DNA of 64,000 nucleotides, from positions 1 through 64,000 of the forward strand of contig JAJXYO010000052.1 in the NCBI GenBank assembly GCA_021780495.1. The letters are read 5' to 3'. Positions 13,646-49,076 of this stretch are shown here, piece after piece (position 1 is the first letter of the stretch; the number at the start of each line of letters is the position of its first letter). Source of the DNA: Deltaproteobacteria bacterium. Its GTDB lineage: Bacteria > Desulfobacterota > Desulfuromonadia > Geobacterales > Pseudopelobacteraceae. Both the position numbers and the translations under genes were made by a program. The notes under the pieces are model-generated. The model had not been told where the DNA came from, searched no databases, and saw nothing but the letters and a program-made list of their open reading frames with translations.

Positions 13646-14974
13646 TTACTCGCCCGCGACGCCCATGGCCCATTCATAGCTGACCTGTGCCACCCGATAG
13701 TCGCGCTGTGCCCGCGCCAGGTTGCTCCTGGCGAGGACCAGGTTCAGTTGGGCATCATCGACCTCCAGCCGGATCTTGACCCCGTACTCGTACCCCTTTT
13801 CAGCCATCTGCAACAGGCGCTCGGCCTGCTTGACCGTGCCGGTCAGGGCCTGGACGATCTCGGCCGCCTCCCTGACCGCATTACCGGCATCACGGACCTC
13901 CAGCGCCACCGAGTCCAGCAGCTTGGATTCCTCGATCTGGCGGGTATGCAGATCGCTTCTGGCCTGGGTTACGCGTCCACTGGTCCGGAAGCCGTCAAAA
14001 AAGGGAAAGGTCAGATACACGCCCACGTTCCAGGCTACGCCGTTCTCATTGATGCCCTGGCCCTGGCCCATGCCGGTCACATCCAGCCAGTGCCAGCCGG
14101 CCGATCCTTTCAGGTCCAGGCGGGGTTTGTTGTCAGCCGCGGCGATCGTCACCAGCTCGTCGTAGATACCGATGCGCAGTTTCGCATCAGCCAGCTCCGG
14201 CCGTTTGCTGCGGGCCGTTGCAAGCGCCTCAGGATAGCTGCGGGGCTGTTGGATGACGCTGTCCAGCGAGCCGGCGACATCGATCGGCTCACCTTCAAGG
14301 GCCAGCAGATAGCGCAGTTTCTCACAGGCCGTGCGAATGCTGTTTGCGCTGCGGATCACATCGGGGCGGGCGTTTTCAACCGCTACCTCGGCCGCCAGAA
14401 TGTCATAATCAGTCGCAACACCGGCCGTAAACTTACGGCGGGCCTCGTCCAGATGGCGCTTTTTCTGGGCCAGGTTCTCCACTGCCAGGCGGTTGAGCTC
14501 CCGGGCCAGCAGAATATCGTAAAAGGCAGCCACGACATCACGGTAAGCGGCTTGCCGGTACAGGCGCAGCTGCTCATCGGCGGTTTTCAGCCCGACGGTT
14601 GCCGCCCTGATGGCCGCGCCGACCTTGCCCCAGGTGAAGAGCGGTTGCGTGAGCGAGATATCTGCCGTGCGGCTGTACTGGCGGGCCGCCGCACCGATCA
14701 GGGCCTTCTGGCTTTCATCCATCGCCAGGCTGGCACCACCGTTCAGCGAAAGCTGCGGCAGGGCCGCCGCACGCTCCTCGATGTAGCGCCCCTGGACGTA
14801 GCGGGCGTATTCACGGGCCTTTTCGATATCGCGGTTCTTGCTCATGGCGATAGAAAGCGCCTGGTCGAGCGTCAGGTTGCGGGTCCCGGCGGCATGGGCA
14901 TATTGAAGTCCACCACGGAGGCACGGAGACACGGAGAAGATCAACGACAAAACTAATAAGATGGCATTTTTCAT
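13646..14974 (-). CDS. TolC-like outer-membrane efflux protein
   Basis: A 442-residue outer-membrane channel that completes the tripartite RND pump. Two outer membrane efflux protein repeats are seen, with long amphipathic helices (for example [17 protein letters not shown]) and beta-strands such as [16 protein letters not shown]. The ATG at 14974 overlaps the upstream stop (ATGA), so translation is coupled. The signal peptide is odd: residues 13-22 are encoded by the terminal repeat of the inserted cassette and residues 1-12 by its interior. The original N-terminus has apparently been replaced, yet still yields a hydrophobic core and an AHAAG cleavage region. Confidence 0.92.
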
Positions 14975-15385
14975 AACACCATCCGGCGTATGCCATCTTT
15001 CAAGACCGCTGCGTTGAAGTTGAGAAGTAAGCCGGTTTTGATTCCGGTCAACTTGAGGTATGTAATCAGCTGAGCATCATGAATCGGCAGTAGTTTTTCA
15101 ATACTCTTCAGCTCGACTACTACCTTTTGGCCAATCAGTAGATCAATTCTATAGACTGCATTCAGTTTGTTCTCCTTATAGACAACCGGAAGCACGACTT
15201 GACGTTCCACCTGTATGTTCCGTGCAGATAATTCGTAACACAAACATTCCTCATAAGCCGATTCGAGTAGGCCTGGTCCCAGTTCCTTATGTACCTCAAT
15301 CGCACAGCCAATAATTGCCTCCGTTAGCTCCCGATCATACATGCGAATTCCTCCGTGTCTCCGTGTCTCCGTGTCTCCGTGGTGG
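14910..15385 (-). mobile_element. GxxExxY cassette with inverted 9-bp-unit terminal arrays
   Basis: A 476-bp unit. The left end (14910-14936) reads CCACCACGGAGGCACGGAG... and the right end (15351-15385) is its inverse, an array of CTCCGTGTC units ending CCGTGGTGG. It contains one gene, a GxxExxY protein. The cassette lies precisely between the RND pump and TolC genes and has changed the coding ends of both. No transposase is encoded, so movement would need an outside enzyme. A shorter relative without the gene lies at 12899. Confidence 0.75.
14971..15342 (-). CDS. GxxExxY protein (PD-(D/E)XK nuclease fold)
   Basis: A 123-residue protein with the family hallmark GLLESAYEE (the GxxExxY motif) near residue 26 and a PD-(D/E)XK-like core: Asp in YRIDLLIG followed by VVVELKSIE. 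Function is unknown; the nuclease-like residues appear intact. The ATG at 15342 has its own GGAGG ribosome site 7 bases away, formed by the end of the terminal repeat array. The frame is also open to the upstream RND gene, so it can be made either alone or as the C-terminal domain of the pump. Its stop overlaps the TolC start. Confidence 0.85.
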
Positions 15386-18300
15386 GTCTTTAAGCTCCAT
15401 TTCCGTTTCAGCCAGCCGCCGAAATCATCCATCAGGGTGTACATGACCGGTACCACCAGCAGTGTCAGGAAGGTCGAGGTGATCAGGCCGCCCACCACGG
15501 CGCGGGCCATGGGGGCGCGCATCTCGGCGCCGCTGCCGATGGCCAGAAACAGCGGCAGCATGCCGAAGATCATGGCCAGGGTCGTCATGATGATCGGCCG
15601 CAGCCGGGTCCGTCCGGCCAGGATGACGGCCTCGCGGCGCGCCAGGCCATCCCTTCGCTGCAGGACCTTGGCGTAGTCCACCAGCAGGATGGCATTCTTG
15701 GTGACCAGACCCATCAGCATGATCAGGCCGATCAGGGACATGATGTTGACGGTATCGCCGGTCAGCTTGAGCATCCCGGCCATGCCGACGATGGAAAGCG
15801 GCAGGGACAGCATGATGGCCAGCGGTTCAAGGAACGACTCGAACTGGGCCGCCAGGATCAGGTAGACGAACAGCACCGCCAGGATCAGTGATTCGGCCAT
15901 GTAGCCGAAGGATTCGGCCATGTCCTCGGCCTCTCCCGACAGATCGATGCTGTAGCCGGGCGGCATGTTGATCCGCCGGGCGGCCGCTTCAACACGCTTG
16001 GCTGCCGTGCCGATCGGCAGGTTGTCCAGATTGGCCGAAACGGTGACCTGACGTGCCAGGTCGCGGCGGTTGATCTCGGTGGGTGAGGCGGCCACCACGG
16101 TGCTGACCAGACTGCCCAGCGGCAGCATCTTGGTCCCGCCAGCGCCGTCGGGCACGGAAATGTTCAGGTCCCGCACCTGCGACGGATTCTGACGCAAGCG
16201 CGCCGGCAGCCGCACCCGCACATCCACGGCATCGCCATCCTCATCCTCAAAGGTAGAGATCGCCTCGCCCCCGATCAGCCGCCCGACAGCGCCGACAATA
16301 TCGTTGGTGGTCACCCCGGCCGAGAGCGCCTTGGCACGATCAACCCGCAGGCGGTACTCGGGAATGTCGTTCTCCAGGGTCATGGAGAGATCGACAATGC
16401 CGGGCACCTTGTAGAGCTCTTCCTTCAGCCGGGCGCCGAGCTGTTTGAGGACCTGCAGGTCATCGCCCTTCAGGTTGATGTTGAGCGGTTTCTGTGCCCC
16501 GCCGATCTGGCCGACCTCCTCAATCGAGAAGGTGATCCCGGCCACCTTGTGCAGGCGTTCACGGATCTCGCGCTGCAGGACAAACTGGCCTTTTGCGCGT
16601 TCGTTGCGCTCCTTGAGTTTCACATACAGCAGGCCGTCGCGTACCGTGCCGCTGTCGCCGGCGCCGATTGTGGCGTAGGTGTGGTCGATCTCGGGTATGC
16701 CCTTGATGGCTGCCAGGATAGCATTCAGGCGGCCCTCCGTTTCAGTGATGCTGGCATCGGGCGCTGTTTTGAACGAAATCTGGAATTCGCCTTTGTCATA
16801 TTGGGCCATAAAGGAGGACTCCAGCGTGCCGAAGATCATGATGCCGGCTATAAAGGAGGCCACGGCCAGCGCCATGACGGTTGTGCGGTGGTCCAGGGCC
16901 CAGCCGACAGCCGTGCGATAGCGGTCGGCGGTCCGGTCGAACCAGCTGTTGAAGGTTTCCAGCCAGCGGGCGATGCCGCTGCGCCGGCCTTGCAGGTGGA
17001 TGGAGGGGTCGTGCCAGCGGGAGGAGAGCATCGGGTCCAGGGTAAAGGAGACGAACAGCGAGACCAGTACGGCAAAGGCCACCGTGATGCCGAACTGGTA
17101 GAAGAAACGGCCGACGATGCCCTTCATGAAGGCCACCGGCACGAATACGGCGATGATCGACAGGGAGGTGGCAAAAACGGCCAGACCGATCTCCGAGGTG
17201 CCGAAACGGGCCGCTTCCATGTGGTCTTTGCCCATCTCCAGGTGGCGGACGATGTTCTCGCGCACCACGATGGCATCGTCGATCAGCAGACCGATGGCCA
17301 GGGACAGCGCCATCAGGGTCATGACGTTGAGGGTCATGCCCAGTGCGTTCATGACAATAAAGGATGAAATGACCGAGATGGGCAGGGTCACGCCGGTGAT
17401 GACGGTGGAACGCCAGGAGTTGATGAAACAGAACACGATCAGGATCGTCAGGACCCCGCCGATGACCAGTGTTTCCTTGACGTCGGCCAGGGACTCGCGG
17501 GTCATGATCGACCCGTCCCGCACCAGGCTGATCGTGACCCCGGCCGGCAGCTCCTTCTGTACCTTGCTGATGACCTTCTTGACCGTATCGACCAGTTCCA
17601 CCTGATTGCCGCCAGACTGCTTGTAGATATCCAGGCCGATGGCCGGCTGACCATTGATCAGCGCCAGTTTGCGCTTTTCCTCGACACCGTCACTGACCTG
17701 GGCTACCTCGCCCAGGGTGATCGGCCGGCCATCCTTCTGGATGACCACCATCTGGCGATACTGATCGGCCCGCTCCGGTTTGCCCTCGATCCGCAGGGGA
17801 TATTCGGCCTGGCCTTTGGTGATGCGTCCCAGCGGGGTGTTGGTGTTCTCGGATTTGATGCCGTTGACCACATCGTTGACCCCCAGGCCCAGGGCATCCA
17901 GGCGGACCGGGTCCAGATCGACATTGATCTCACGCTTCCGGCCGCCGACCATGTCCACCTTGCCCACACCGGCTACACTCTCGAAGCGCTTCTTGATCCG
18001 TTTCTCTACCAGGCTCGTCAGTTCGCGGGGGGTAAGGGTGCTGGACTGCACCGCCAGGGCTGCCACCGGGGCGGCATTGAAATCGAGTTTCTGGATAATC
18101 GGCTCTTCGATGCCGGTGGGGAGTGTGCCGCGGATGGAAGCGATCTTGGCACGCACCTCCTGGGCGCAGTCGTTGACCTTCTCCTCCAGGCGGAACTCGA
18201 CCACTACCGTGGAAACGCCCTCGCGGGAGGTGGAGAAGACATGCTTGACCCCGGCCACCTGGTTGACCGCCTCCTCGATGCGCTTGGAGAGCTCGCGCTC

Positions 18301-18477
18301 GACCGTTTCGGGCGATGCGCCGGCGAAGACCGTCACCACCGAGACCACCGGAAATTCCACATTGGGAAACATCTCCACCGCGAGGCGGCGGTAGGAGAAT
18401 ATGCCGAGCACCACCAGCGCCAGGATCATGACCGTGGCGAAGATGGGGCGTTTGATGGAGGTGTTGGAGAGGATCAT
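14971..18477 (-). CDS. RND efflux pump fused to GxxExxY domain
   Basis: AcrB/MexB-type inner-membrane proton-driven pump. Residues 1-1030 are a complete RND transporter: first helix after [11 protein letters not shown], two large periplasmic loops, and the proton-relay aspartates in [13 protein letters not shown]. Residues 1031-1045 are encoded by the cassette's terminal array and are rich in H, G, T and R. Residues 1046-1168 are the GxxExxY domain. Normal family members stop near residue 1030. The ATG at 18477 matches the family start; an in-frame TTG at 18504 is an alternative. It follows the DMT gene, with a repeat element between. Confidence 0.9.
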
Positions 18478-18500
18478 GGGGTGTGCGCCTTTGTTGAATG

Positions 18501-18679
18501 GCAAATCCCCCTCAGTCCCCCTTTACAAAGGGGGAAGCTTTAAAACCCACCACTTTTCAATGGGGGAAGCTTTAAAACCCACCACTTTTCAATGGGGGAA
18601 GCTTTAAAGTCCCTCACTTTTCAATGGGGGAAGATTTAAAGTCCCCCACTTTGTAAAGAGGGGTTAGGGGGGATTTGCT
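18501..18679. repeat. Palindromic element with four 32-bp tandem units
   Basis: Ends are inverted: GCAAATCCCCCT...CTTTACAAAG on the left and CTTTGTAAAG...AGGGGGGATTTGC on the right. Inside, a 32-bp unit beginning GGGGGAAGCTTT repeats at 18530, 18562, 18594 and 18626 with few changes. It belongs to the same CCCCCTTT family as the repeat in the hyb operon, here expanded in tandem. It lies between the DMT and RND genes of the operon. Confidence 0.85.
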
Positions 18680-22748: not shown

Positions 22749-23501
22749 ATGGAAGACACAACAATATTTCATATAACACACTGGAAGGCTGGGTCACAGT
22801 GGATTAAGAGAATACTTAAGGAAGCTGCACCCAGAAGGTACATAGATTCTAAGATTGCTCCTAGAAAGTACGTAGATTCTAAGATCAACATTGCACACTT
22901 TCTTAACGATCCAATTCGGCAAGGTTATATATATCCCACAGTTTATGTAACTAAAGAACAGTTTGAAAGCGTGAGCTTGCCAAGTAAATGGTCCAGATTC
23001 ATTGTAATAAGGGACTTACGAGATACGCTTGTGTCCGGATATTTCAGTATGAAAATTAGTCACCCCATTTTAACGGATTACAATAAGGAGCTAAGAACCA
23101 ATCTAAATTCAATGAGTTTTGACGATGGCATGATATTTCTTGCAGAAGGGTGGCTTAAAGGAAGTGCCGCTATACAAAAATCTTGGGTTGACTTAGGTGA
23201 AGAAATAATTCGTTATGAGGATTTGTTGCAAAACGATACGGAAATTCTAACAAAAACTCTAATTGATAAATGCGGCTTAAATATTAGCAAGGATAAATTA
23301 TTTAAAATAATAATGGCTAGTCGATTTGAAGTCTTAACAGGTGGCAGGAAAAAAGGGGATGAAGATATTTACTCGCATGAACGAAAAGGTATTTGCGGGG
23401 ATTGGAAAAATTATTTCAGTGAAAAGATTTCAGAGCGGTTTAAATTGTTATATGGAGACTTATTGATAGCTACCGGATATGAAAAAGACATGATCTGGTA
23501 A
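22749..23501 (+). CDS. Sulfotransferase
   Basis: A 250-residue soluble PAPS-dependent sulfotransferase that would transfer sulfate to a sugar hydroxyl or amine. The 5'-phosphosulfate loop is HWKAGSQWIKRIL (residues 11-23), the 3'-phosphate site is RDLRDTLVSGYF (about residue 95), and the C-terminal RKGICGDWKNYF matches the family RKGxxGDWKN motif. An AAGGAG ribosome site precedes the ATG. A 10-codon tandem duplication (22831-22890) lies just after the first motif. AT-rich relative to the efflux operon, like its neighbours. Confidence 0.88.
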   Translation: MEDTTIFHITHWKAGSQWIKRILKEAAPRRYIDSKIAPRKYVDSKINIAHFLNDPIRQGYIYPTVYVTKEQFESVSLPSKWSRFIVIRDLRDTLVSGYFSMKISHPILTDYNKELRTNLNSMSFDDGMIFLAEGWLKGSAAIQKSWVDLGEEIIRYEDLLQNDTEILTKTLIDKCGLNISKDKLFKIIMASRFEVLTGGRKKGDEDIYSHERKGICGDWKNYFSEKISERFKLLYGDLLIATGYEKDMIW

Positions 23502-23747: not shown

Positions 23748-24458
23748 ATGCAATATTTTGCAGACGATGTTTTTCTTGTTTCGTATCCTAGATCAGGCAA
23801 TACTTGGATGAGATATCTTCTATCTAACATATTAGAACCTTGTAAGGCGTGGCATCTTAGAAATATTAATGAAGTTGTACCCGACATCTATGAAGTTGAT
23901 ATAAGTTTATTTGCTCGTCCAAGAATTATAAAAAGCCACGAGCCTTTCACCTGTCTTTACCCAAAAGTAATCTATATGTATAGGGATGGTAGAGATGTCG
24001 CTGCATCATACTACAATCTATCTAAGACCGCATTTGGTTATAAAAAGTCATTTGAGGTCTTTCTTTTGGCAATGCTGACGGGAGGCAAAGAGGCTGTATT
24101 TGGATCTTGGCAAGCGCATGTATCAGGATGGTTGGATGCCGCGCAGAGTGGCAGCGTCTTTTATATAAAATACGAGGATTTATGTCAGAATACAGTTAAT
24201 GTTATGGAAAAGCTTGGATGTTTTATGGGGAATAATTTTGATAGGGTAATGATCTTGTCCGCCATTGATAAATCTACATTTGATGTACAAAAAGAACATG
24301 TAAAGAAATATTCAGAACATTATGTCAAAGGCTTCCACGGTGGGATCAAGGGCGGACCAGGGAAATGGCGAGAAGTTTTTACAGAAGAGATGAATGAGCT
24401 TTTTTGGCATCACGCTGGAGTTTTGATGACCAGACTAGGTTATAAAAAGTATGATTAG
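23748..24458 (+). CDS. Sulfotransferase
   Basis: A 236-residue sulfotransferase of a second subtype. The 5'-phosphosulfate loop is SYPRSGNTWMRYLL (residues 12-25), the 3'-phosphate motif is YRDGRDVAASYYN (about residue 77), and GGPGKWREVF occurs near residue 203. The motifs are more canonical than in the preceding gene and the two share little outside them, so they are not recent duplicates. It has 246 bases of AT-rich gap before it with no clear promoter. Likely acts on the polysaccharide made by this locus. Confidence 0.9.
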   Translation: MQYFADDVFLVSYPRSGNTWMRYLLSNILEPCKAWHLRNINEVVPDIYEVDISLFARPRIIKSHEPFTCLYPKVIYMYRDGRDVAASYYNLSKTAFGYKKSFEVFLLAMLTGGKEAVFGSWQAHVSGWLDAAQSGSVFYIKYEDLCQNTVNVMEKLGCFMGNNFDRVMILSAIDKSTFDVQKEHVKKYSEHYVKGFHGGIKGGPGKWREVFTEEMNELFWHHAGVLMTRLGYKKYD

Positions 24459-36585: not shown

Positions 36586-37878
36586 TTGTTAGATTATTTG
36601 AGTGTTGCTATTAGTATGCTACAGTTATGGTTTGTAGTAAATACACTGTTATGGCCTATCAATGTTCATATAGGTGACAATGCACTTGGTCTAAATACGG
36701 TTTTAATGGTTTCTGGGGGAACCTATTGGATCGGCACAAGACGGAGACTGTCAAAATTTACAGTTAAAACAGCAATATGCCTTGTATTGTTTTTCCTTTT
36801 ATCATCAGTTATTGCCTTAAAAGGTCCTTGCGAGGACAAGTTCTTTAAGTCCTTTTTATCGGCGCCATTACTATTTGTTCTTATTTGCATCGGAATTGAA
36901 ATCAGCAAACAGGCCAAGCCGCAAGACTGGTTAAAAATGCAACAAACTGCACTCTGGATTCTCATCATAGCAGCTAGTTTCGTAGTTTTTGAATTCTTTT
37001 TACCAAATTTATTTTCTCCGGAAAAAGCAGCGTACCACTTAGAAGGAAAATACTCAGGATTGTATTCCGAACCAAGCCTTCTGGCCATTTCTCTGTTCAC
37101 CCCTGTTGCTTTATTATTGTCTTCACAAGTAAAAAAATACAATAGATGCGGTGTTATTGCATTATTATTTTTTTTGTTGTTCTCCAGATCATCAACACTT
37201 ATCTTGCTAACTTTTTGCTATGTTCTCTACCGTTCGATGTTCTCACATAAAATCAGTCAAATATTTCGATATGTTTTAGCTATAATAGGCATTGTTTGCA
37301 TTGCTTCATATATCAATTTCGATCTATTAATAGCTCCAACAATTGATCGTATTGCCGGTATCACGAAGAGCAGTAATCAAAATCTTTCGAGTTTAATTTA
37401 TATTAAAGGCTGGCAGGATGCATGGGCCAACATAAATAGGACAAACGGTCTCGGACTGGGTTTCAATATGATGGGTTGTACACCTCTTCCGGCTGTTCCA
37501 GTTCGTAACATATTAAAACTAGATACGATGGCACTAAATGATGACGATGGTTCATTTCTTTTCAGCAAAATTGTTTCAGAAACAGGTTTGATTGGCGTAT
37601 GTTTTTTTATTTGGATTGTCTGGAGTTGGATAGCATATGAAAGAAAAACTAGGAAATTAGAAGGAACCGTCGCTTTTGAGATAGCTTCAGTGCACACAAC
37701 GTTCATGTTTTGTTTTGTTTTTTCATCGCTGGTACGCACGGCTGGCTATTTTCAGGGTGGTGGGCTGCTTTGGGTAACTGCTGCAGTTGCTGCCTACCAT
37801 TTACAACGGGAAAATCTTATAAAAAGCAAGCTACCTATAGTTGAAAGAGTTAAATTGGTCGCCCCTGAGAAAGTCTGA
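36586..37878 (+). CDS. Wzy-like O-antigen polymerase/ligase
   Basis: A 430-residue multi-helix protein with about ten membrane segments and a large periplasmic loop around residues 250-330, the usual layout of Wzy polymerases and WaaL ligases. YSGLYSEPSLLAISLF near residue 150 and NGLGLGFNMMG near residue 287 fit O-antigen polymerases. Its codon use is AT-rich, as is common for wzy genes. The start is uncertain: TTG at 36586 has no ribosome site, and an ATG near 36616 would trim 10 residues. Confidence 0.8.
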   Translation: MLDYLSVAISMLQLWFVVNTLLWPINVHIGDNALGLNTVLMVSGGTYWIGTRRRLSKFTVKTAICLVLFFLLSSVIALKGPCEDKFFKSFLSAPLLFVLICIGIEISKQAKPQDWLKMQQTALWILIIAASFVVFEFFLPNLFSPEKAAYHLEGKYSGLYSEPSLLAISLFTPVALLLSSQVKKYNRCGVIALLFFLLFSRSSTLILLTFCYVLYRSMFSHKISQIFRYVLAIIGIVCIASYINFDLLIAPTIDRIAGITKSSNQNLSSLIYIKGWQDAWANINRTNGLGLGFNMMGCTPLPAVPVRNILKLDTMALNDDDGSFLFSKIVSETGLIGVCFFIWIVWSWIAYERKTRKLEGTVAFEIASVHTTFMFCFVFSSLVRTAGYFQGGGLLWVTAAVAAYHLQRENLIKSKLPIVERVKLVAPEKV

Positions 37879-42671: not shown

Positions 42672-44393
42672 ATGGGGCATGTGTTGACAATTGTAAGCAA
42701 TAAATTGAAGAACCTTTTGAAAACAGCCGAATTGCCGGGTATTCGCCTGTGCATGGCCGGCGTGGGGCTGCTGACAACGCTTGTGTGCGTAAAACCGGCC
42801 TGTGCCCTTTCCTCGGCCAATATCCCCCTGAGCAGCCCGGTCTACAGTTACCTCGACAAGCTGGCCGGCATGGGGCTGATCACCTCTGATATAAAAGGGT
42901 TGCGACCCTATTCCAAAGCAGAGGCCGCCCGGTTACTGCTGGAGGCGCTTAAGAGCATTGCCGGTCAGGATGTTGCCGCTCCGGCCTTTGCCATGGAGCT
43001 GGTGAGGCGGGTTCGCGAACTTCTGCCCCGTGAAGTCTCGCTGCAAGCACATCCCGAACATAAACCGCCCCTGGTTGACTACAATCCGGTATCTGCCCTG
43101 CGTGCCCGTTATGTCTATCTGGATGGGGCGCCCCGGAACTACAGCCGGCCGGTCTTTATCCGTGGAGGTCAATCCGCTTTCGGCTTTATCGGGGGGACGC
43201 TCCGTCCGCTCAGCGACGCCGGCGTGCTGTATGAATCCGGAACCGAAGGAACGCCCCTTGATGAGAACAACAACGGCATTATATATAAACGTGGAAACAA
43301 TGCCGAAATTCGTCTGTCTGCCGAAGGGTATGTAAGCGACAAGGCATCTGCCCTGCTTGAACCGCTGCTGCAATACTCACCCGATGATACCCGTTTACTG
43401 CTCAACAGGGGCTATATAAAGCTGGGAGGTGGCGGCCTGGAACTGGAGGCAGGGCGCGATGAAAACTGGTTCGGGCCGGGATATCGCGGTGCCTTGACCC
43501 TTTCCAGCAATGCCAGGAACTTTGATCTGGTCAAGCTGTCCAGCCCCGAGCCCTTGGATGTGGCCTGGATAAAACGCTGGCTGGGGGATGTCAAGTATGC
43601 CTTGATCGTGTCGCGCTTTAACGAGACCGATGCAGGTACCCCCGCGCATCGGCGCCCCTATTTTATCGGAGCCAAGCTGGCAGTGAAACCTTACACCTGG
43701 TTCGAATACGGGATTAATTTTGTACGCCAGCAAGGCGGACCCGGCTTCATCGGATCTACCAGCCTCACAGACGAGATTTTTGGCGGGGGGAATACCAATC
43801 ACAATAATAGTATCGCCGGAATAGATCTTCGCTTTCGAGTACCCTGGTTACGAAATACGGAGATCTATGGTGAGTACGCGGGAGAAGATTCTGCCTCATT
43901 CTGGCCTATTGTTGAAAGCTATGTTGCCGGCGTTTACGTCCCCTGCCTGACCGCTTCCTGTCGCGATGATCTGAGGTTTGAGTTTTTCTGGGGCAATCCC
44001 ATGTTGTACACCGACTTCAAGTTTCCTCGCGGCTACAGCTACCAAGGCATGACTCCCGGCCATTCCCAGGGCGGAAGCGCCCAGGATTTTTTTGTACGAT
44101 ACAGTCACTCCTTCTCTGCCCGCAATGTTGCCGCCCTGGAATATTTTCATACGGATCGCGGCCAGGAGGGGCGTGTTCCGGTTGACAGTGCCGGGCAATA
44201 TGATCCGCTCAATGGTGTCATGCAGGCCATGGAGCATAAGGATGCCGGACGTATCAGCTGGTCGCTGCCGATCTACGGTGATGTTGATGGCCAGATACTC
44301 TACGGTCTTGAAAAAATCAGGAACCTGAATCTGGTAGCGGGCGCCGTGCGAACAAACCAGCTTGCCACGTTTGAACTCAGGTATCGGTATTGA
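42672..44393 (+). CDS. Capsule assembly Wzi-like outer-membrane protein
   Basis: A 573-residue exported protein. The signal peptide ends at about residue 46 (KPACA). A first module of about 70 residues (residues 50-122), with SPVYSYLDKLAGMGLI and RPYSKAEAARLLLEA, recalls S-layer-homology-type helices. The rest is a beta-barrel with GRDENWFGPGYRGALTLSSN near residue 260, typical of Wzi, which holds capsule on the cell surface. The C-terminus ends in an aromatic residue (RYRY), as barrel proteins do. The same module recurs inside the export protein encoded next. Confidence 0.88.
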   Translation: MGHVLTIVSNKLKNLLKTAELPGIRLCMAGVGLLTTLVCVKPACALSSANIPLSSPVYSYLDKLAGMGLITSDIKGLRPYSKAEAARLLLEALKSIAGQDVAAPAFAMELVRRVRELLPREVSLQAHPEHKPPLVDYNPVSALRARYVYLDGAPRNYSRPVFIRGGQSAFGFIGGTLRPLSDAGVLYESGTEGTPLDENNNGIIYKRGNNAEIRLSAEGYVSDKASALLEPLLQYSPDDTRLLLNRGYIKLGGGGLELEAGRDENWFGPGYRGALTLSSNARNFDLVKLSSPEPLDVAWIKRWLGDVKYALIVSRFNETDAGTPAHRRPYFIGAKLAVKPYTWFEYGINFVRQQGGPGFIGSTSLTDEIFGGGNTNHNNSIAGIDLRFRVPWLRNTEIYGEYAGEDSASFWPIVESYVAGVYVPCLTASCRDDLRFEFFWGNPMLYTDFKFPRGYSYQGMTPGHSQGGSAQDFFVRYSHSFSARNVAALEYFHTDRGQEGRVPVDSAGQYDPLNGVMQAMEHKDAGRISWSLPIYGDVDGQILYGLEKIRNLNLVAGAVRTNQLATFELRYRY

Positions 44394-44498: not shown

Positions 44499-44603
44499 TA
44501 TTATTCCACGTTGCTTTCAAGTTGGCCGTTTCAAACCTCCGAGAGTTTTGAAACCTCGGAGGTTTCTTCTGGATTAAATGTCATCTTGATTGCAAAAGTG
44601 AAT
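44499..44603. repeat. 103-bp dispersed repeat, copy 1
   Basis: Starts ATTATTCCACG and ends TTGATTGCAAAAGTGAAT, with a central stem AAACCTC(C/G)GAG. An inverted copy of good similarity lies at 50171-50274. It occupies much of the 303-bp gap between the Wzi-like and export genes. Confidence 0.8.
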
Positions 44604-44696: not shown

Positions 44697-47600
44697 ATGA
44701 AATTGTTGATAGTACGAGTACTGGCCCTTGTCTGGATTCTGACGTTTGCCGGCATTTCTTACGCTGCTACGGATGGCAATGTGCGGGAAAATTGGGGCAA
44801 GGAATCGAGCGGGAACGTGTCATCGCCACAATTCCAGGCCGGGAGTCAGACCTCACCAGGCACGCTCAGTGATGATACTCTCCTGCGCCTGCTTGAAAAT
44901 CGCCGCGATCAAAAAAAACTGGATGTTCAGAACGGCGACCCCAGGGATGAAATAATTGGTCAGGATAAGGCGGAAATCGATTCCCGCACGGGCAGGGCAA
45001 AGAAGCCGCAAGTGCTGGTAACCGCTGAGCCGGGAGATGGCCTGATCAAGCTCACCTGGAAGTTGGTCAATCTGCCGGTAAAGAGTGACAATCAGCCCCT
45101 GCGTTTCGCTGTCCGCTATGGTATCGAGTCGGAAAAGATGACCAAAACCCTGCAGGTAGGAACCACTGACAGCTATGTGCTGCGAGGGCTGAAAAACAAT
45201 CAGCCCTATTATATTCAGATTGCGGCACTTGACCGCGAACAATTGGTGTCATTCAAGTCTGATGAAATCAAGGCTGTGCCGCTGCCGGCCGAGGATCAGG
45301 GCTCCCGGCTGGAAAAGGCCTTTTCCAAAAAGACCCTGACCTTGATGGATAAAAATGTACCGGAACCTTTTGAGCGGGATTTGCACCAGTTCGGCTACGA
45401 TTTCTTCAAAAACAGCTTACAGAGCTTGGGGGCAATGGATTCCCTGCCGGTTGGTAACGATTATATCCTTGGTCCGGGGGATACCCTCAACTTGAGGGTG
45501 TGGGGCGCCATTAATTTCCGTCACGAGCTGACGGTTGATCGTAACGGCGAAATCATGATTCCGAATGTCGGCGTTGTCAATGTCTGGGGACTGACGTACG
45601 AACAGGGCCGGGATGCCATCAATAAAGCCATTGGCCGTCTTTACAAAAACTTTGAGATGAACTTAACACTTGGGCGTCTGAGAACGATCCAGGTGTTTGT
45701 GGTTGGAGAGGTTGAGGCGCCGGGCAGCTATTCGGTCAGTTCTTTGGCCACCGTCATCAATGCCCTTTCAGCCGCCGGCGGGCCTTCCCGCAATGGCTCG
45801 TTACGGAGGATCCGAATCACACGCAACGGGCAGTCGCCTATTGCCGCGAAGGTCCCACTGGACAGCCCGATTTACGGCTACCTGGATAAATTGGCCGGCA
45901 TGGGCTTGATTGCGCAGGGGACCAAGGAATCCCGGCCGTATACCAAAGCAGATGTTTTGCGCCGGGTGCGGGAAGCAGAGAAGAATATTGCCGTGAATGA
46001 TAAGGCTTCTCCGGGCGCGGCCATGGAATTGGTCGTGCGTATTCGCGAGTTGATCCAGCGCGCGGATGCCACGGGGGAACAATCGGGTACGAGCCAGGCG
46101 CCAGGACAGAATCTGGCTGCCCGCGAAGTCGACCTGTACGATATGTTTCTGTCCGGTGATCGCAGTAAGGATATACGGCTTCAGAACGGCGACACCATCT
46201 TTGTGCCGGTGATCGGACCGGTGGTAGCTGTGGCTGGTGAGGTTAAACGCCCGGCAATTTACGAGATTGCAAAGAATACGACGCTTCCCGATGTGCTCAA
46301 GATGGCCGGGGGCGTAACGGCGAACGGCTATACCGGCCGTATCCAGGTTGAACGCATATCAAACAACGCCAGGGTGGTACTCGATTATGCGTCGAAAGGT
46401 AGTAACCTTGATGCTGCGCTGGGAAAGGTTCAGATCCTGGATCGTGACATGATCAAGGTCTTCCCGGTTCAGGAGGCGACCCGTCAGGTGGTCAGCCTGA
46501 AGGGCAATGTTGTTCGTCCCGGAGAATACCAGTACCGGAAAGGGATGCGACTGACGGATCTGATCCACGGTTTTCGGGCCTTGCTGCCTGAGTCATACCT
46601 GGAATCGGTCGAGATTACCCGCCTGGCCCCCCCCGATTTTCATCGCGAGTTGTTAACCGCCAACCTGCGCCGTGCTTTAGGCGGCAGCACGGCCGACAAT
46701 GTCCTGCTGCAGGAACAGGATACGGTGAAGGTCTTTTCACGCTGGGAGATGGAGGAGAAGCCCCGGGTTTCCATAAATGGCGCGGTGGTGAACCCCGGTA
46801 CCTATGACTTTTATCCCGGTATGAGGGTCAGGGATCTGATCACCGCTGCCGGAAGCCCGAAGCGTAATGCCTACCTGGAAACAGGCGAACTGAGCCGTAT
46901 CGTGATTGTGGGTGACAAGGCCAACCCCAGTCGTCTGTCTCTGGACCTGTCAAAAGCGCTGGCTGGTGATCCTACGCAAAACCTGCCGCTTCAATCGGAC
47001 GATGTGTTGATTGTCCGGAGCGTTTCTGATTGGTTCGATGCCTCGGACAAGTTTATCACGCTGAAGGGTGAGGTGCGATTTCCCGGTGTCTACTCGGTTG
47101 CACGCGGCGAGAAGCTGAGCTCAGTCATTGCCAGGGCTGGCGGGTATACCGAGAGAGCCTATCTGCGCGGGGCGAAATTCGAGCGACGCTCTGTGCGCGA
47201 AACCCAGCAGCTCAGGATGAATGAAATCGTAGCACGGACGGAGAAGGAAATTCTGCAGAAGCAGGTCGCGTTATCCTCGGTGTCCTCTTCGCGGGATGAG
47301 CTTGAGGCCACCAAGGCCGCGCTGGATGGTCTGATGAAGAATGTCGAGAGGATGAAGACCATGAAGGCCGAGGGGCGTGTTGTCATCCGTCTGACACCGC
47401 TCGATGAGTTGCAAAAGAGCAGTTTCGATGTGGTGGTGGAGGGGGGCGACGAGCTTGAAATACCGGCGCGCCCGAGTGTTGTGAACGTGCTGGGCATGGT
47501 CTACAATCCCATCTCTTTTGTATATCAGCCGGAGGCTTCCGATATTGAATCCTATCTTAAAAAAGCGGGTGGACCAACCAATGATGCCGATCCATCTGAA

Positions 47601-47849
47601 ATGTATGTCGTCAGGGCTGACGGTACCGTATTCAGTAATCAGCAATCTACGTTCGGGCTGCATTGGGACGATAGTGACCGGCGCTGGACCTTCGGCGGTT
47701 TCACAGCGTCCACACTCGAACCGGGTGATACCTTGGTTGTGCCGCAGAAGATCGAGCGTATTGCCTGGATGAGGGAAATAAAAGATATCACACAAATTTT
47801 AGCGAATGTTGCCCTTACAGCAGGCACTGTTCTGATCGGTCTGAGATAG
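44697..47849 (+). CDS. Polysaccharide export protein (SLBB, Wza-like) with FN3-like domain and embedded module
   Basis: A 1050-residue exported protein, far longer than the about 380 residues of Wza. In order: signal peptide (1-23); a fibronectin III-like domain (about 100-190, VLVTAEPGDGLIKLTWKLVN to YYIQIAALD); a poly-export domain (about 255-345, LGPGDTLNLRVWGAI); then a series of SLBB domains to the C-terminus, with a coiled segment before the last one and a final hydrophobic helix. The first SLBB domain is split at about residues 385-475 by a module like that of the Wzi-like protein. The ATG at 44697 has an AAGGAGAG ribosome site. Probably the outer-membrane exit channel. Confidence 0.9.
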   Translation: MKLLIVRVLALVWILTFAGISYAATDGNVRENWGKESSGNVSSPQFQAGSQTSPGTLSDDTLLRLLENRRDQKKLDVQNGDPRDEIIGQDKAEIDSRTGRAKKPQVLVTAEPGDGLIKLTWKLVNLPVKSDNQPLRFAVRYGIESEKMTKTLQVGTTDSYVLRGLKNNQPYYIQIAALDREQLVSFKSDEIKAVPLPAEDQGSRLEKAFSKKTLTLMDKNVPEPFERDLHQFGYDFFKNSLQSLGAMDSLPVGNDYILGPGDTLNLRVWGAINFRHELTVDRNGEIMIPNVGVVNVWGLTYEQGRDAINKAIGRLYKNFEMNLTLGRLRTIQVFVVGEVEAPGSYSVSSLATVINALSAAGGPSRNGSLRRIRITRNGQSPIAAKVPLDSPIYGYLDKLAGMGLIAQGTKESRPYTKADVLRRVREAEKNIAVNDKASPGAAMELVVRIRELIQRADATGEQSGTSQAPGQNLAAREVDLYDMFLSGDRSKDIRLQNGDTIFVPVIGPVVAVAGEVKRPAIYEIAKNTTLPDVLKMAGGVTANGYTGRIQVERISNNARVVLDYASKGSNLDAALGKVQILDRDMIKVFPVQEATRQVVSLKGNVVRPGEYQYRKGMRLTDLIHGFRALLPESYLESVEITRLAPPDFHRELLTANLRRALGGSTADNVLLQEQDTVKVFSRWEMEEKPRVSINGAVVNPGTYDFYPGMRVRDLITAAGSPKRNAYLETGELSRIVIVGDKANPSRLSLDLSKALAGDPTQNLPLQSDDVLIVRSVSDWFDASDKFITLKGEVRFPGVYSVARGEKLSSVIARAGGYTERAYLRGAKFERRSVRETQQLRMNEIVARTEKEILQKQVALSSVSSSRDELEATKAALDGLMKNVERMKTMKAEGRVVIRLTPLDELQKSSFDVVVEGGDELEIPARPSVVNVLGMVYNPISFVYQPEASDIESYLKKAGGPTNDADPSEMYVVRADGTVFSNQQSTFGLHWDDSDRRWTFGGFTASTLEPGDTLVVPQKIERIAWMREIKDITQILANVALTAGTVLIGLR

Positions 47850-47858
47850 GGGTATCGT

Positions 47859-49076
47859 ATGAACCAGCAACCATATACAAATCCACCATCTGAAAGTTGC
47901 GATGAAGACGAGGTCAACCTGCTTGAATTATTGCAGGTGATCGTCAGGCGCAAAATGCTGATTATCAAAATCTGCACAAGCGCCATAATCCTTTCGGTCT
48001 GCTTCTCGCTGTTTCTGGATAATATTTATACCGCTACAAACCAGTTTCTTCCGCCACAAAAAGAGAACACGAGTGCTGCATTCTCTGCACTGCTTTCCCA
48101 GGCGGGTGGTTTGGGAGCTCTTGCTGCTGGTGGCTTGGGAGGTTCGACCGATCTGTATCTGGGAATTATCAAAAGCCGTTCCGTGGCCGATGCCGTTATC
48201 AAACGTCTGGATCTGCAGAAGGAGTTTAAGAAAAAAAATATTGATGACACCCGTAAGGCCCTTGAAAAGGTTGTAACGTTCAAGGCAGGTAAAAACGGCA
48301 TCATTTCAGTTTCAGCTGATAGCAAGGACCCTCAGAAAGCAGCCCTGCTGGCCAATACCTTCGTGGATGAACTGACCCATCGGAGCATACAGCTCTTCCT
48401 TTTAAAAGCCGGGGGGGAACGCCTTTTTCTGGAACAACGTCTGGCGGTCGTCAAGCAGGATCTCAAAAAAGCTGAGGATGATTTAAGGTCGTTCCAGGAA
48501 AAATACAAGACCATCAAGATTGACGCTCAGGCCGCAGTTGCTATTGAAGGGATCGCACGAATCAAGGCGGAAATTGTTTCCAAAGAGGTGCAGCTTGCTA
48601 CGTTGAGGAATTCCAGAACCGATGAAAGTAGCGATGTAATGGCACTTCAAGCAGGTATTTCCAAATTGAAGAGTCAGTTGGGCACCATGGTCGGCAGCGG
48701 CGGCGCTGAAAACGTTATTCCAGCCACCGGAAATTTGCCGGCACTCGGTGTTGAGTATCTGCGCAAGATGCGCGACCTGAAGATTCAAGAGGCGATCTTC
48801 GAGCAGCTAACCAAACAGTACGAAATGGCAAAAATAAATGAAAATAAAGATACCTCAACACTCCAGGTACTTGATGAGGCCGTGGCTCCGGCAAAGAAAA
48901 GTAAGCCGAAGCGATTGCTCATCGTGCTATTGTCAACGTTTACAGCCTTTCTGTTCTCAATTGTGACCATATTCGTACAGGAACACCTCGCTAAGTTGCC
49001 TCCCGAAGATGCGGAGATTCTCAGGGAGATCAAGCAGTCGCTGAGCTTTTGGAGAAGAAGAGCAGGAGGAGCATGA
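47859..49076 (+). CDS. Wzz-type chain-length/co-polymerase protein
   Basis: A 405-residue polysaccharide co-polymerase. The first helix (about residues 32-55) and the last helix (about 345-368) bracket a long periplasmic part with coiled-coil segments (for example KAEDDLRSFQEKYKTIKIDA). The opening DEVNLLELLQVIVRRKMLI is the Wzz signature, and the Pro-rich LDEAVAPAKKSKPKRLLIV precedes the second helix as expected. No tyrosine-kinase domain is attached. It follows the export gene by 9 bases. Confidence 0.92.
   Translation: MNQQPYTNPPSESCDEDEVNLLELLQVIVRRKMLIIKICTSAIILSVCFSLFLDNIYTATNQFLPPQKENTSAAFSALLSQAGGLGALAAGGLGGSTDLYLGIIKSRSVADAVIKRLDLQKEFKKKNIDDTRKALEKVVTFKAGKNGIISVSADSKDPQKAALLANTFVDELTHRSIQLFLLKAGGERLFLEQRLAVVKQDLKKAEDDLRSFQEKYKTIKIDAQAAVAIEGIARIKAEIVSKEVQLATLRNSRTDESSDVMALQAGISKLKSQLGTMVGSGGAENVIPATGNLPALGVEYLRKMRDLKIQEAIFEQLTKQYEMAKINENKDTSTLQVLDEAVAPAKKSKPKRLLIVLLSTFTAFLFSIVTIFVQEHLAKLPPEDAEILREIKQSLSFWRRRAGGA

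Follow-up and report, generated by a model that had tools for sequence, protein, structure and literature searches.

The Wzi protein of E. coli (structure 2YNK) carries an N-terminal three-helix bundle which plugs its own 18-stranded barrel from the periplasmic end, and glycine substitution of an exposed part of helix 1 is tolerated (PMC3791409). This protein is the sole source of structure-based information on the Wzi plug domain (PMC3791409), which is not known to bind a partner. A polysaccharide export (OPX) protein that has no outer-membrane segment of its own can function together with an 18-stranded barrel (PMC9601211, PMC9603273). Genes for Wzi-type barrels often lie close to OPX genes (PMC9603273). 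Wzi has been kept apart from the barrels of such composite translocons because its barrel is plugged (PMC9601211). Research on capsule assembly has yet to settle the position of Wzi relative to the exporter and the purpose of the plug. A literature search on domain insertion in export proteins returned nothing relevant.

The locus described here belongs to the draft genome (68 contigs, 90% complete) of a Geobacter-like species. In the 64-kb stretch of DNA that was analysed ("the window"), a Pfam scan revealed a polysaccharide cluster from ~25.8 to 49.1 kb, which codes for sugar-nucleotide enzymes, glycosyltransferases, a Wzx-type flippase, methyltransferases, and a phosphoglycosyl transferase. 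At its 3′ end it carries a Wzi-family gene, an OPX exporter gene, and a Wzz-type gene, in that order. The Wzi-family outer-membrane beta-barrel protein (573 aa; 42672..44393, + strand) is assigned to the Wzi capsule assembly family by its Caps_assemb_Wzi barrel (aa 188-563, Pfam E 5e-111) and by its AlphaFold2 (AF2) model. The OPX exporter (1050 aa; 44697..47849, + strand) has a weak fn3-like Pfam match at its N-terminus, followed by a Poly_export domain (aa 252-325, Pfam E 5.5e-19) and six SLBB stretches (E 7e-56). No Wza_C or GfcC domain was detected by Pfam above the cut-off in this protein, also when the tail and the N-terminus were scanned separately. Its C-terminus (ITQILANVALTAGTVLIGL) is hydrophobic and, judged by sequence, could be a Class 1 Wza_C-type outer-membrane helix. 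The downstream gene (47859..49076, + strand) codes for a Wzz/GNVR-type chain-length protein devoid of a kinase domain (Pfam GNVR E 2e-13, Wzz E 7.5e-12), the expected inner-membrane partner of the exporter.

Several further features of the window were recorded. The polysaccharide cluster is directly preceded by two sulfotransferase-domain genes (22749-23501 and 23748-24458, both + strand), and sulfation of the exported polymer is therefore possible. A 430-aa protein encoded mid-cluster (36586-37878, + strand) has no Pfam match and, from its position, is a candidate for the Wzy polymerase. Between wzi and the exporter gene is a perfect 11-bp inverted repeat (AAACCTCCGAG...CTCGGAGGTTT, 44533-44565), while the chance expectation for the window is none. 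Four such elements occur in the genome, the three others having a more regular centre; for this one, a dispersed repeat and a terminator are both possible. At 14971-18504 (- strand), a single open frame of 1177 aa combines an RND efflux pump (ACR_tran, aa 13-1025, Pfam E 1e-271) with a C-terminal nuclease-like domain (PDDEXK_3 (GxxExxY), aa 1059-1175, E 1.5e-44).

In the exporter, RIRITRNGQ (aa 371-379) is followed by a foreign segment (aa 380-476; 45834..46124, + strand), after which the protein continues with EVDLYD. A preliminary description of this DNA had noticed this interruption, placing it at 45846-46122, which is correct to ~12 nt, and had equated it with the module at the mature N-terminus of the adjacent Wzi; both observations were borne out. 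Exporter aa 383-455 (45843..46061, + strand) and Wzi aa 48-120 (42813..43031, + strand) align without a gap and are identical at ~58% of residues. The alignment has a BLOSUM62 score of 204, far above the scores obtained when the insert was shuffled 2000 times (mean 31.7, sd 4.9, maximum 58), so that the proviso of the preliminary description, a similarity at background level, is set aside. The DNA similarity claimed there is also real: 58 nt match at 77.6% (blastn E 1e-6), the top non-self match in the window. A profile of the module matches the insert with E 1.4e-36, the insert having itself been one row of that profile. Exactly two copies of the module are present in the genome, one in the Wzi gene and one in the exporter gene, and no second Wzi barrel was found in it, the adjacent Wzi being the sole one.

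The Wzi-like part of the segment stops near 46061. The final ~21 residues (ADATGEQSGTSQAPGQNLAAR; 46062..46124, + strand) are a low-complexity linker, a counterpart of which was not found in Wzi. Because the segment begins at the mature N-terminus of Wzi and stops ahead of the barrel, it corresponds to one whole domain without the signal peptide.

Comparison with related exporters shows that this domain was inserted. Exporter matches were obtained in 53 of the 57 relatives' genomes that were searched, and these matches are interrupted at query residues 379-382 and 474-477, which are contiguous in the relatives. The segment is absent from all 29 aligned related exporters, which run straight through the site. 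The closest comparison is with the orthologue from the same-genus genome G001, which is 82% identical (dS 1.2) and lacks the segment: RSGQ-APL-EVDLYD corresponds to RNGQ-[97 residues]-EVDLYD. At the DNA level, 291 nt replace 9 nt, a net gain of 94 codons that is in frame (282 nt). The orthologue from a second same-genus genome (L135, G003:C22:31069-31944), which is 81% identical, falls outside this check, as its contig ends at query residue 759. The insertion site is the beta-hairpin turn of the first SLBB domain, a turn that varies in sequence among the relatives. Wza structures align up to exporter residue 379-380, and the alignment of 2W8H skips aa 380-476 and resumes at 477. Together with the alignment of the relatives, this substantiates the earlier claim that the first SLBB domain is split. 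No Pfam model matches the inserted segment.

That the segment might be an ordinary part of SLBB domains, the other proviso of the preliminary description, is therefore ruled out by the relatives, by Pfam, and by the Wza-type structures, and we give this explanation practically no chance of being correct. An assembly artefact which joined pieces of two genes has to be kept in mind for a draft genome of 68 contigs from a species with one available assembly. However, the insert and the second module copy of this genome differ at 42% of residues, and the insert is in frame at both junctions and has a linker of its own; we consider such an artefact very improbable. As none of the related exporters that were checked has the segment, the domain insertion is genuine and rare. 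By sequence comparison, a Wzi-family domain is inserted in a member of a known exporter family in a single lineage. Domain and protein family are both known; what is new is that a copy of the plug has been placed inside an exporter.

Both modules were modelled, and helices are predicted at matching residues. The AF2 model of full-length Wzi (pLDDT 88, pTM 0.89) shows three N-terminal helices (H13-23, H39-55, H62-83), then the barrel, and its top Foldseek match is E. coli Wzi 2YNK (E 2.6e-20, TM 0.79 on target, 548 columns). A direct sequence match between the plug and 2YNK was not significant, though a weak segment occurs in the expected place. The exporter fragment was folded as a monomer with exporter homologues only, so that the insert was folded without homologues; the model reaches pLDDT 69 and pTM 0.42 overall, the insert helices (H157-167, H183-199, H205-225) being at ~77-88. 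After an offset of 144 residues these fall on the plug helices of Wzi, both sets being AF2 predictions. Confidence decreases to pLDDT 36 over fragment residues 231-240, in the linker. Foldseek matches the exporter model to Wza structures. According to the models, the insert is the periplasmic three-helix plug domain of Wzi, with the same helix boundaries.

The same models gave one hint in another direction. In a Foldseek search, the exporter fragment matched OmpM1 in its SLH region (8BZ2; E 0.037, probability 1.00, TM 0.63 on target). The SKAE/TKAD motif of the module resembles TRAE of SLH, and OmpM1 likewise has an N-terminal helical domain ahead of a barrel (PMC10628300). On this reading the module would be a divergent single SLH-type repeat, and its inserted copy would anchor the exporter to peptidoglycan or to a polymer of the cell wall. 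This structural hint was not upheld by profiles: Pfam SLH (PF00395) gave no match in a set of 38 Wzi proteins when E values up to 10 were admitted. A comparison of profiles, made with a small set of SLH sequences which includes one stray sequence, equals its reversed control and is itself a weak negative. Moreover, 8BZ2 represents a compact state which is thought by its authors not to bind peptidoglycan (PMC10628300). We consider an SLH identity of the module, and with it a wall tether, unlikely. Separately, we note that the plug motif SPxYxYLDKLAGxGLI...PFSKAEAARLL (42813-43031, and relatives L063-L125) is reminiscent of an SLH repeat on visual inspection, with weak similarity by Foldseek as well, and that the model of the Deinococcus SlpA barrel (PF21620) is also matched by one Wzi (E 0.0004). 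A distant kinship of Wzi with SLH-barrel proteins is possible; a literature search on Wzi with SLH returned nothing relevant.

The distribution of the module was surveyed in 141 genomes of the order, 277 of the class, a phylum sample of 395, and 63 loci from a scan of GTDB species; these sets overlap. The module is common in all of them, yet it resides in Wzi-sized genes everywhere except in the exporter of the window. This search for exporters with and without the insertion, suggested in the preliminary description, returned the exporter of the window as the only carrier, with no other one in the 141-, 277-, and 395-genome sets or the 63 GTDB loci. The two longest frames (G394, 789; G497, 681) were inspected, and both proved to be Wzi genes with an upstream open frame. 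In about 11 other loci, wzi is directly upstream of an exporter which is free of the insert, and genome G001 has the exporter while Wzi is absent entirely. Neither the presence of wzi nor that of the exporter predicts the insert. Since insert-free exporters also adjoin Wzi, the module is not required for any general partnership between the two. Conservation of the chimera cannot be shown because only one exporter with the insert is known.

The comparison shows that the plug-coding stretch of a Wzi-family gene was copied, minus signal peptide and barrel, in frame into the exporter gene in the lineage of this Geobacter-like species, at the point where the first SLBB domain makes its hairpin turn. 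The donor was possibly the neighbouring wzi gene. The insert could not be placed in the module tree; a small codon tree puts it, weakly, beside the Wzi of its own genus. The insert is predicted to form a three-helix bundle of its own that is carried by a flexible linker and leaves the flanking SLBB strands in place. We further infer that the exporter ring displays plugs which may touch the Wzi barrel next to it at the periplasmic mouth and so hold both together. The fact that the sole Wzi of the genome adjoins the exporter was counted in favour of this explanation, as was the position of wzi directly upstream of the exporter elsewhere. We rate the chances of this explanation as a whole, a Wzi plug inserted into an exporter together with an exporter-Wzi contact, as about even, which makes it the best one available. 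Its functional step, that exporter-borne plugs hold the exporter and the anchoring Wzi together, is by itself tentative and more doubtful.

About as likely as a plug-docking function is a passenger: Wzi coding DNA that entered a permissive loop in frame by accident, is tolerated because the domain can fold by itself, and has no role. Its single occurrence, at a hairpin turn of variable sequence, is what such a passenger would leave, and no Wzi plug has diverged as far as the insert. In the module tree its end branch measures 3.8, compared to a median of 0.17, and its pN/pS is 0.56, compared to 0.39 for Wzi pairs. Of 30 strongly conserved plug positions (the same in at least 85% of Wzi plugs), the insert keeps 20 and has lost 10, while any Wzi has lost 7 at most; some of the lost positions belong to loops which might touch the barrel. 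However, the frame is open, with no stop or frameshift, despite synonymous sites which are saturated compared to all known Wzi. In addition, 13 of 13 conserved positions are kept within positions 5-22 (the first helix block), compared to 7 of 17 elsewhere (Fisher p 0.0006, the split having been chosen after looking). A two-rate codon model yielded omega 0.32 on the insert branch and 0.11 for the background. The likelihoods speak against omega = 1 (2dlnL 4.1) and, about as strongly, against an omega equal to that of the background (3.9). The test is marginal: it covers 79 codons, its synonymous sites are saturated, and the insert branch may include evolution of the donor Wzi. Relaxed or altered purifying selection fits the sequence data best, which is suggestive; a frame that stays open, with the first helix block intact and the remainder changed, would weakly point to such a constraint. 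A passenger without a role is a serious alternative, which we place somewhat below an even chance.

The preliminary description had read the segment as an N-terminal module of Wzi that splits an SLBB domain and is not a normal part of it, and this reading stands. Its proposal of a docking module shared by exporter and Wzi went beyond the evidence, and the plug of E. coli Wzi packs into its own barrel (PMC3791409). A stricter version, in which the exporter plug docks into the Wzi barrel or swaps with the Wzi plug and so joins the OPX ring to Wzi, appears improbable to us. If it is true that the two proteins meet through the plug, the natural fusion would reveal an exporter-Wzi contact which exists unfused in other capsule systems, and the Wzi plug would be a movable gate. 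The chimera makes this possible contact testable, as domain fusions elsewhere have pointed to interacting proteins. Even as a passenger, the insert would be a clean case of a domain of one protein that landed intact inside another. The insertion also identifies the turn of the first SLBB hairpin as a site that can take up an entire folded domain.

Among the systems described to date, OmpM1 of Veillonella parvula (SLH plus porin; PMC10628300) shares with Wzi the order of an N-terminal helical periplasmic domain and a barrel; it differs in that neither sequence nor profile comparison relates the Wzi plug module significantly to SLH. OPX/Wza-type exporters agree with the exporter of the window in having Poly_export and SLBB domains and an adjoining Wzz-type gene, and Foldseek matches it to Wza. 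In contrast to these, it has six SLBB stretches, no detected Wza_C, and the plug insertion. Composite OPX/beta-barrel translocons likewise combine a periplasmic OPX protein with an 18-stranded barrel encoded nearby (PMC9601211, PMC9603273), but no shared domain links their partners. E. coli Wzi (2YNK; PMC3791409) has the same three-helix bundle before an 18-stranded barrel, and the model of the Wzi encoded in the window matches it; whereas the bundle of the E. coli protein seals its own barrel, the window carries a second copy of the plug inside an exporter.
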